Part shown: in pieces, positions 3,415 through 4,832 of the stretch
How positions within the stretch are numbered: the first letter of the stretch is position 1
Layout of the letters: the number at the start of each line of letters is the position of its first letter
Assembly (NCBI RefSeq): GCF_017743975.1
Contig: NZ_JAGHRC010000002.1
Coordinates: 496,001-560,000 of the forward strand
Origin: Ruegeria sp. R14_0
Lineage (GTDB): Bacteria; Pseudomonadota; Alphaproteobacteria; Rhodobacterales; Rhodobacteraceae
Direction: 5' to 3'
DNA: 64,000 bases
The notes under the pieces: model-generated
The model's input: the letters and a program-made list of their open reading frames with translations, nothing else
The model's database searches: none
What the model was told of the DNA's origin: nothing
Made by a program: the position numbers and the translations under genes

Positions 3415-3834
3415 TCAATCTTCGGACACCTTACCGCGCAGCGCTTTGACATCCGCCCTGGCCTTTTTGGCCGCCAGACGACGCTTGACCGAACCATAGG
3501 TCGGTTTGGTTGCGATACGCCGCTTTGGTTTGACCAGAGCGCGCCCGATCAGCTCGGCCAGACGGTTACGGGCAATATCGCGGTTGCGGGCCTGACTGCG
3601 GGTTTCGTCGCATTGGATGATGATCGCGCCCTCTTTGGTCCAGCGCCGCCCGGCCAACCGCTTCAGGCGCGCTTTGACCGGATCCGGCAAGGACGGAGAG
3701 CGCGCAGCCTCGAACCGCAGCTCGACCGTGGTCGAGACCTTGTTCACGTTCTGCCCGCCGGGTCCGGAAGACCGCACAAAGCTTTCGGTCATTTCCCAGT
3801 CCTGCAGGATAATATCATCGGTGATACGCAACAT
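3415..3834 (-). CDS. arfB: Alternative ribosome-rescue factor ArfB (peptidyl-tRNA hydrolase)
   Basis: This is a 139-residue protein of the YaeJ/ArfB family, which enters stalled ribosomes lacking a stop codon and hydrolyses peptidyl-tRNA. The catalytic GGQ is at residues 26-28 within RSSGPGGQNVNKV. The C-terminus is rich in Lys and Arg (KRRLAAKKARADVKALRGK), as needed to fill the empty mRNA channel. The length and the lack of other release-factor domains separate it from RF1 and RF2. It lies about 2.5 kb (four genes) from smpB, so two ribosome-rescue systems sit in the same neighbourhood. Confidence 0.93.
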   Translation of the reverse strand: MLRITDDIILQDWEMTESFVRSSGPGGQNVNKVSTTVELRFEAARSPSLPDPVKARLKRLAGRRWTKEGAIIIQCDETRSQARNRDIARNRLAELIGRALVKPKRRIATKPTYGSVKRRLAAKKARADVKALRGKVSED

Positions 3835-3860
3835 AACGCGACCTTACAGGCCTGATCCGC

Positions 3861-3892
3861 AAACAAAAAGGGCCGCCCTGGTGGGGCGGCCC
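3861..3892 (-). terminator. Strong intrinsic terminator
   Basis: On the - strand a stem of 8-9 bp (GGGCCGCC with GGCGGCCC) with a 5-7 nt loop is followed by TTTTTGTTTG. It ends transcription coming from the transporter and small-ORF region (3965-4741) before arfB. Confidence 0.85.
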
Positions 3893-4040
3893 TTCGAAAG
3901 TACAGGAGGTTGGGTCGGTTAGATCAATCGACCAGCCGGAGCGACCGCTCCGCCAAGGGCTGCCTTAACAGGCTTTCCCCCCGGTTGTTCCAACACCTCT
4001 CTCCAATCTCTTTCTCGACACTGGATCACCTCCTTTTCTA
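3865..4040 (-). ncRNA. Candidate small transcript: extended SD, mini-ORF, anti-SD, terminator
   Basis: Read on the - strand, AAAGGAGGTGATCCAG (4036 to 4021) is the exact complement of 16 nt of the conserved 16S rRNA 3' end. It is followed by an 18-codon GTG ORF (4021-3965) and a 6-bp hairpin (3952-3937). Next comes an unpaired anti-Shine-Dalgarno ACCTCCT (3910-3904), then the terminator (3892-3861). The anti-SD can pair with AGGAGGT at 4034-4028 over 7 bp or remain free between the two hairpins. The layout recalls alphaproteobacterial small-ORF plus CCUCC-type sRNA units, but I recognise no named family. The boundaries are inferred. Confidence 0.4.
3965..4021 (-). CDS. Putative 18-residue peptide with extended Shine-Dalgarno
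   Basis: This GTG-initiated mini-ORF encodes MSRKRLERGVGTTGGKAC if GTG is read as Met. Its start is 7 nt after AGGAGG, inside a 16-nt perfect complement to the 16S 3' end. Three of its first eight codons are the rare arginine codon AGA, which suggests a leader or regulatory peptide rather than an ordinary protein. It shares frame and stop with the apparent tail of the upstream transporter ORF, so it is only independent if that ORF normally ends earlier. Confidence 0.35.
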   Translation of the reverse strand: MSRKRLERGVGTTGGKAC

Positions 4041-4741
4041 TCTGTTGCGGTTAACTTGGAGCCTGACACAAGATGCGCCATTCTCAAAGCACTTTTTTTC
4101 GCAGGCTGAGCGGTCAACCGCGCAACAATCACCTTGAACGGGATCAGCGCGATCAGGGCCAGCGACAGTTTCACCAACCAATCGGCAAAGGCCAAACTCA
4201 CCCACAGCGGGGCTTCGGGGCCGGACAGCATGAAGGGCACAGGCTCCCACGCCCAGCTGATGGCTGCATCTGCGTCCGCGCCGAAGATTGTGATCGACGC
4301 CGAAAAGGCGATGGTGAAGAACAGCGTGGTGTCCAGGGCCGATCCGACCAGAGTCGAGACCAGCGGCGCGCGCCACCAACGACCGCCGCGCATTGCGTTG
4401 AACACGGTAACGTCGGTCAGCTGCGCAATCAGGAACGCGGTGCCCGAGGCAACAGCAACCCGCAGCGGAACAGCGGCATATGTAAAGCCGTCGCCCTGCA
4501 GCATGATCTGCGTGCCGATGAGTGAACAGATGATACCGGTGATAAATCCGGCGAAAACCACGCGGCGCGCGGCTTCAACGCCGTAGACGCGGTTCATGAT
4601 ATCGGTGACCAGAAAAGCCACGGGGAAGGTAAAGGCACCCCAGGTCAGGAGGCCATCCAGCAACAGAAACTGGACCAGAATGTTTGAGGCCACGACAATG
4701 GCGGCCATGGCAAGGATGCCGGGAAAAAAGCTGCGTTGCAT
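3965..4741 (-). CDS. yhhQ: Queuosine precursor transporter, YhhQ/VUT family (aberrant C-terminal tail)
   Basis: This inner-membrane protein has about six hydrophobic segments and belongs to the YhhQ/QueT family, which imports preQ0/preQ1 for queuosine in tRNA. Typical landmarks are FPVAFLVTDIMNRVYG near residue 40 and SALDTTLFFTIAF in the second half. The ATG at 4741 opens with MQRSFFPGI and gives about 258 residues, against about 220 in the family. The last 40 residues (after LTAQPAKK) are hydrophilic and atypical. A run of seven A residues (4090-4096) lies exactly at this change. One A fewer would give PAKKVL and a stop. Either the stop was lost or there is a one-base error. Confidence 0.82.
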   Translation of the reverse strand: MQRSFFPGILAMAAIVVASNILVQFLLLDGLLTWGAFTFPVAFLVTDIMNRVYGVEAARRVVFAGFITGIICSLIGTQIMLQGDGFTYAAVPLRVAVASGTAFLIAQLTDVTVFNAMRGGRWWRAPLVSTLVGSALDTTLFFTIAFSASITIFGADADAAISWAWEPVPFMLSGPEAPLWVSLAFADWLVKLSLALIALIPFKVIVARLTAQPAKKSALRMAHLVSGSKLTATDRKGGDPVSRKRLERGVGTTGGKAC

Positions 4742-4832
4742 TTTCAGATGCCCGTTTTGACAAGGTAGCGGCGACTTGGCCAAGGGGTCATCCCAAGGCA
4801 AGCCGTGCGTTTAGACGTTTGCCGGGCCCCTG

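Follow-up and report, generated by a model that had tools for sequence, protein, structure and literature searches.

On the minus strand of the window (the whole 64,000-nucleotide stretch of DNA that was analysed), between a VUT-family transporter gene and an RF-1-domain gene, there is a conserved RNA gene that is probably stand-alone. Comparison of related sequences gives good support to this predicted gene, to a selected ORF within it and to its helices. The element is most likely a small mRNA or a dual-function sRNA whose initiation region would have two alternative pairing partners, itself and the 30S tail. For the more specific reading, a stand-alone small RNA gene of about 190 nt that serves as both a tiny mRNA and a structured RNA and that closes on itself in competition with capturing the 30S subunit, we put the chances at about even.

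Anatomy of the element and its conservation in Ruegeria

Read along the minus strand, the VUT-family transporter is followed by the element and then by the RF-1-domain gene, which we take to be ArfB-like. The element itself consists of a leader, the 16-nt box AAAGGAGGTGATCCAG, a GTG-initiated micro-ORF of 18 codons (VSRKRLERGVGTTGGKAC; 3 of the 18 codons are AGA), a structured stretch, the motif ACCTCCT and an intrinsic terminator with a stem of 12 pairs (Table 1). Over 16 nt without a break the box complements the 16S rRNA tail, for which the reference end (...GGCTGGATCACCTCCTTTCT) was taken from another Ruegeria genome (locus L041) and not from the window genome's own 16S. The first-pass annotation had noted that 16 nt complementary to the 3' end of 16S rRNA stand immediately ahead of an AGA-rich GTG mini-ORF, with ACCTCCT and a terminator behind it, and had called a chance match of that length very unlikely; all of these parts were located, about 3e-5 exact 16-nt matches are expected in 64 kb on both strands (2 x 64000/4^16; 0.56 with 3 mismatches allowed), and the element proved to be more than that annotation had made of it. 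The 12-mer AAGGAGGTGATC occurred a single time in the genome sequence searched, in the element (the rRNA copies must be missing from that sequence). A remnant of 16S antisense sequence was considered and rejected, as the match extends over only 16 nt while true rRNA AAGGAGGTGATCCA matches continue with GCCGCAGG (L031, L033, L034, L041). The fold predicted for the 180 nt from 3861 to 4040 has an energy of -84.9 kcal/mol and a z of -4.5.

Table 1. Features of the element and its neighbours (window coordinates).
Feature	Position	Strand	Basis
Predicted small RNA, ~190 nt	3861..4053	-	Conservation block in 50 Ruegeria genomes; 3' end at terminator; 5' end (4053) placed from promoter-like spacing alone
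-35-like TTGAGA	4082..4087	-	Sequence; site not listed by consensus promoter scan
Possible -10 CAGGCT	4060-4065	-	2 of 6 consensus letters only
5' box AAAGGAGGTGATCCAG; complement of the 16S rRNA tail over 16 nt	4021..4036	-	
18-codon micro-ORF and its stop, VSRKRLERGVGTTGGKAC	3965..4021	-	
ACCTCCT, replicates the 16S anti-SD; partner of AGGAGGT 4034-4028 (helix A)	3904..3910	-	Fold, RNAalifold, arm comparison
Start hairpin F (4025-4017 with 4010-4002), contains the start codon	4002..4025	-	Fold, RNAalifold, covariation
Helix B	5' arm 3990..3997 (within ORF); 3' arm 3918-3912	-	RNAalifold, covariation
Helix D	5' arm 3979..3984 (codons 13-15); 3' arm 3941-3936	-	Hand-drawn with Ruegeria fold; covariation
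Hairpin C (3933-3930 with 3925-3922)	3922..3933	-	Hand-drawn with Ruegeria fold; covariation
Intrinsic terminator stem; tail to ~3861	3867..3895	-	Terminator search, alignment
VUT-family transporter ORF, continuing into the micro-ORF	3965..4801	-	Pfam PF02592, E 2.5e-29
RF-1-domain gene, presumably ArfB-like	3415..3834	-	Pfam PF00472, E 1.1e-20

Across 50 Ruegeria genomes (the window's own row included), mean identity to the window was 0.94 over the element (3861-4040), 0.83 over the transporter and 0.81 over the RF-1 gene, and it dropped to 0.55 just past the terminator (3835-3860). A DNA search gave matches in 54 of 54 genus genomes and covered the whole element in 51; the genus alignment holds 53 of the 54 (G003 is not included). 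In G026, G029 and G037 (L072, L071 and L070) partial matches cover 52-82 nt, vut and arfB are present with the element absent between them, and no convincing copy was found elsewhere in these genomes with the Rfam CC2171 model or with our covariance model R1 (described below).

In the window genome, the transporter frame runs in frame into the micro-ORF, so that the stretch could be read as no separate unit, only the 3' end of the transporter gene together with its terminator. We find this hardly credible, because a transporter stop codon stands 64-66 nt ahead of AGGAGG in 41 of the 43 Ruegeria loci (out of 50) in which it could be read, because the element is better conserved than the transporter, and because relatives in other orders are found without a transporter. 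The two exceptions are the window and L026: codon 4099-4097 (minus strand), the transporter stop in most Ruegeria, is absent in the window genome, and L026 is likewise fused.

Spread across Alphaproteobacteria and gene context

The pattern AAGGAGGTGATCCADTGTC, which fixes NTG-TC by design, was found in 41 of 387 class genomes (0 for the reversed-pattern control) and in 33 of 299 phylum genomes, all 33 of them in the same class, with 0 of 186 outside the class. A scan of named records returned at least 118 stretches, 80 of which are listed as loci, mostly alphaproteobacterial by title; among the matches listed are Ruegeria (R. lacuscaerulensis L119, R. denitrificans L134 and R. arenilitoris L159), Roseobacter, Bosea, Methylobacterium, Bradyrhizobium, Rhizobium, Brevundimonas, Roseococcus and Azospirillum. 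An exact box was also seen in L111, L135, L151, L164 and L177, in records named Gemmatimonadetes/Gemmatimonadaceae, Prochlorococcus, SAR92 and Nitrospinota; since the leader before the box is unlike the family's, chance or misbinning is possible, and these loci, named outside Alphaproteobacteria, were left out (105 loci remaining). Nine of the 105 were skipped (3 with ORFs of 56-59 codons; 6 with ORFs of 24-32 codons for which no terminator was found), which left 96. In L078, L079 and L157 (Azospirillum), the same 5' box stands before 56-59-codon ORFs with a hydrophobic stretch (MSHGASPVVAALFGLAALL...).

The same 5' box, together with a micro-ORF and a terminator, recurs in several alphaproteobacterial orders, and the window has every part by which we propose to define the superfamily: box GAAAGGAGGUGAUCCA (or near), NUG start, micro-ORF and intrinsic terminator. 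We conclude that these loci form one superfamily with at least four peptide types, namely VSR..LERGVGT, VSHCH..TW.LAS (the CC2171 branch), MSSE..EQP and VS..KRCHLAGIAR (Bradyrhizobium). The window element is the Rhodobacteraceae variant, and CC2171 (Rfam RF01867) is the one named branch found. In the Bradyrhizobium-type loci (L136, L142, L147, L148, L162, L173 and L175), a 14-codon ORF ends in KRCHLAGIAR in 7 of 7, and G065, from another family, has two different copies (L242, MSHCHALN..., and L259, MSHGSAKG...).

Two covariance models were used to search genomes. R1, built from alignment A2 (28 Rhodobacteraceae-type sequences), matched 185 of 199 family genomes at E<=1e-3, with the best match below 1e-20 in 160; its E-values are rough, noise reaching down to ~1e-5 in genomes without the element. 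In other families it matched the known locus in 6 of 6 genomes (G139, G057, G065, G147, G071 and G162) at E 2e-7 to 0.03, within or near that noise. The CC2171 model, a less biased route than the NTG-TC pattern, found matches at E<=0.01 in 36 of 144 class genomes, with the cut-off passed in 4, and in 2 of 14 controls (1 over the cut-off; 6 of 14 at E<=1), Deinobacterium chartae being an unlikely control to be matched. In 20 regions matched by this model, box and ORF were found in 17, with NUG-UCN in 15 of the 17, and were absent in L256, L257 and L258.

Among the matches listed, 25 named loci are of the VSR type (L124 included), with vut upstream in 23 and arfB downstream in 21; the same-strand arfB lies within ~320 nt of the box in 17 of the 21. 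ArfB rescues ribosomes, and a cis-acting attenuator or leader that controls the downstream ArfB-like rescue factor would suit this same-strand arrangement, with its terminator between element and gene. We regard such a leader as improbable, since the loci outside the Rhodobacteraceae type are without arfB linkage: the other 55 named loci listed have one arfB, on the opposite strand, and none was found near the 30 shorter loci from the class pattern search. Even in the VSR branch arfB stands 0.7-1.1 kb away in 4 of the 21, and a rough ORF caller put the closest ORF downstream on the element's own strand in 24 of 66 non-VSR loci (one of them, L124, is VSR-like), so that a regulated gene conserved downstream was not found for the superfamily. 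A tmRNA gene lies ~1.2 kb from the element in L087 (2723-3019).

In 102 aligned loci, information peaks at -52 to -49 from AAGG (TTG, -35-like, up to 0.47 bit) and also rises in an AACAA leader with GA ahead of the box; the profile has no clear -10 peak. A promoter of the element's own is therefore probable.

Coding signs, helices and predicted self-pairing of the 5' region

In 49 of the 50 Ruegeria loci the start and stop codons could be read: the micro-ORF begins with GTG or ATG and ends with TAA, TAG or TGA, and TCG/TCA, GTT/GTC and TGT/TGC swap within it. The stops of 44 distinct Rhodobacteraceae-type ORFs were TAG in 23, TAA in 11, TGA in 10 and TGG in 0, where ~5 TGG would be expected if stop positions 2 and 3 varied independently (10 x 23/44; relatedness ignored). 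Differences between close ORF pairs were synonymous in 201 cases and nonsynonymous in 175, a site-corrected ratio of 0.32 (the pairs are not independent). Read in frame, the ORF is 18 codons long in every one of the 24 VSR loci, and all 96 loci, whatever their type, fall within 14-35 codons; 33 of the 96 do so when read in the +1 frame, 31 in the +2 frame and 31 after shuffling. These comparisons support a micro-ORF under selection and, with the block of conservation in Ruegeria, bear out the discrete RNA unit with a micro-ORF that the first-pass annotation had suggested. Variable columns in the 44 distinct ORFs fall on codon positions 1, 2 and 3 in 14, 11 and 14 cases, with the third position not favoured, so that the constraint on the RNA is strong and may explain part of the conservation of the peptide.

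The same signs would fit a plain small-protein gene, one that exists for its peptide, with the strong SD and the folds doing no more than adjusting how much of it is made, as would the SR..LERGVGT that VSR peptides have in common. Such a gene seems rather unlikely to us, because the peptides behind the same 5' box differ entirely from lineage to lineage, because the C-terminal codons lie in helix D and covary at the amino acids' expense, and because conservation in Ruegeria is high at the level of the RNA.

Covariation was tested on A2. The named structure has 13 pairs changed on both sides (shuffled mean 7.4) and 49 double-change cells (21.2 when shuffled), and 0 of 500 shuffles reached the observed value on any of five measures, a result to be read in the light that related sequences can beat shuffles without structure and that the structure was partly derived from the same sequences. 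Sliding the structure by one column lowered the paired cells from 87.6% to 49-60%. Double changes were found in 6 of 6 pairs of helix D, 3 of 4 pairs of hairpin C and 3 pairs of helix B. Start hairpin F had 97.8% of cells paired and 1 pair with a double change, and helix A had 0 double-change pairs and 78.6% of cells paired, where the register of A2 is in part off. Taken by themselves, helices D and C gave 45 double-change cells (20.5 when shuffled), with 24 of 500 shuffles reaching their number of double-change pairs. These two were drawn from the Ruegeria fold and by eye; RNAalifold with 30 Rhodobacteraceae-type sequences recovered helix A (in part), F, B and the terminator, and not D and C. 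In the Ruegeria alignment alone, 1 of 62 pairs had a double change.

The first-pass annotation had also proposed that the anti-SD-like arm might pair with the SD, and the SD box is indeed where the 3' region finds its longest pairing in 22 out of the 23 distinct loci of Rhodobacteraceae type. ACCTCCT is almost invariant within Ruegeria, and the SD-pairing arms differ in sequence among Rhodobacteraceae-type loci (CACCTCCT, CATCTCCT, CGCCTCCT and CATTTCC). In the VSH (CC2171-like) branch, the 3' arm is GACAATGG or a variant of it and pairs with TCATTGTC right behind the start codon, at the same offset in 24 of 35 loci; for the VSH arm GACAAUGG, L106 and L145 show the double change UCAUUGCC/GGCAAUGG. 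The VSR and VSH branches therefore have in common a pairing with the RNA's own 5' region. When this clamp was tested locus by locus (96 loci minus duplicates), it was not stronger than with shuffled arms (mean z -0.87 for VSR and -0.68 for VSH). The MSS and 'other' groups gave no sign of a clamp (mean z -0.22 and +0.09), foreign 3' arms pairing as well as their own, and the claim is therefore limited to the two branches.

The arms bear equally on a trans-acting sRNA of the Rhodobacter CCUCC-motif kind, in which ACCUCCU would bind the SDs of other mRNAs, as it was once proposed that the anti-SD might be released to do. Its near-invariance in Ruegeria, directly ahead of the terminator, would suit such a role. 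We dropped this reading as quite improbable, as the arm differs from one lineage to another and keeps to the box of its own RNA: elsewhere it becomes CATCTCC, CGCCTCC or CATTTCC and still pairs with that box, the VSH branch has another arm, and in the fold the arm is paired and does not lie in a hairpin loop.

Proposed mechanism and comparison with known RNAs

In the reading that we prefer, the small RNA that closes on itself or captures the 30S subunit, the 5' box would pair with the 16S rRNA tail over 16 bp and drive translation of the 18-codon ORF, while the 3' end, made last, would pair through its copy of the 16S tail (ACCUCCU) with AGGAGGU of the box, and a hairpin with UCCAGUGUC inside would hold the start codon. 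At first the RNA would be open and take up a 30S subunit while still being transcribed, and later it would close on itself, the winning state being set by the supply of free 30S subunits. As the box and ORF emerge first and the competing arm follows ~110 nt later, early capture and later closure would follow from the anatomy. The predicted gene, its selected ORF, its helices and their lineage spread are supported by comparison, and 30S binding by the box is predicted; we infer that there is a promoter, that the RNA switches between open and closed, that it senses how many 30S subunits are available, and that its output is the peptide, the capture of ribosomes or the two together. A wider version, which we advance only tentatively, is that the RNA gene may be as old as Alphaproteobacteria, that its 16S-tail complement captures 30S subunits and so reports or buffers the free pool with the micro-ORF as read-out, and that the Rhodobacteraceae have added a copy of the rRNA tail as competitor, CC2171 being one branch.

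The analysis groups scattered loci, the unexplained Rfam sRNA among them, as a single alphaproteobacterial RNA family. The family is widespread in Rhodobacteraceae, and this branch carries a micro-ORF under selection behind 16 nt that are complementary to the rRNA tail. Initiation is slowed when SD pairing is over-long, and the element offers a way to ask why cells keep an SD far longer than good translation should need, and also whether an RNA can sense the pool of free 30S subunits.

In an Rfam scan of the window every family stayed below its cut-off. RF01867 (CC2171) gave 31.3 bits (E 3.8e-5) against a curated cut-off of 75, so that the earlier statement that no named family is recognisable stands as far as membership goes and needs amending in that the element is a sub-threshold relative. 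Further weak Rfam matches, with E from 0.038 to 4.1 (mir-9242, suhB, RNAI and others), fall on the terminator or on other GC-rich stretches and were set aside. CC2171 and the window share the box AAGGAGGUGAUCCAGUGUC (in the model alignment), a closing helix of long range that joins the region following the start codon to a place shortly ahead of the terminator, and a length of ~160-190 nt. They differ in the closing helix itself, which is CAUUGUC/GACAAUG in CC2171, whereas the window has GUGUCGAGAAAG and ACCUCCU...CUUUCG, its closing arm ACCUCCU lying on the SD itself, and in the peptide (VSR..LERGVGT in the window, VSHCH..TW in the CC2171 branch). CC2171 members over the cut-off have a 21-25-codon micro-ORF behind the box (L087, L095, L101, L155 and L156); 4 of 20 loci pass the RF01867 gathering threshold, and in a set of 10 loci the CC2171 model hit the element every time (E 1e-17 to 0.02), once above the cut-off. 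Rfam types RF01867 as Gene; sRNA, and no mention of an ORF was found.

In the literature, the CC2171 relative MH_s33 of Mesorhizobium huakuii is tabulated with a 215-nt sequenced product (PMC5596092). Passages from sRNA studies of R. pomeroyi (PMC4809877) and P. denitrificans (PMC5107571) gave nothing that could be matched to the element, and CC2171, MSSE and MSNE are absent from the text of a paper on the small proteome of S. meliloti (PMC10117765). A literature search with the box in RNA letters matched only in rRNA processing, and longer box-plus-start strings were unmatched; expression data for the Ruegeria element, or a publication giving the CC2171/element family a function, were likewise not found there.

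The CCUCC-motif ('cuckoo', CcsR) sRNAs of Rhodobacter have the DUF1127 protein CcaF1 as companion, and their CCUCC motif is unpaired, in a hairpin loop. They resemble the element in having a small ORF near an anti-SD-like CCUCC motif in the same bacterial family. They differ from it in that the window has one ACCUCCU, predicted to be paired with the SD (minimum-energy fold; RNAalifold, n=30) and not in a loop, in that the 18-codon ORF is too short for a DUF1127 domain, and in that the neighbours of the element belong to the VUT and RF-1 families, with no companion DUF1127 gene.

By description, not by sequence, the element can also be likened to two small RNAs that encode a peptide as well: Pos19 of Rhodobacter sphaeroides, which is 219 nt long and RpoE-dependent (PMC5036791), and rnTrpL/peTrpL of Sinorhizobium meliloti, an attenuator RNA (PMC10117765). 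The latter is leaderless, whereas the element is without a general regulated downstream gene and has an extreme SD.
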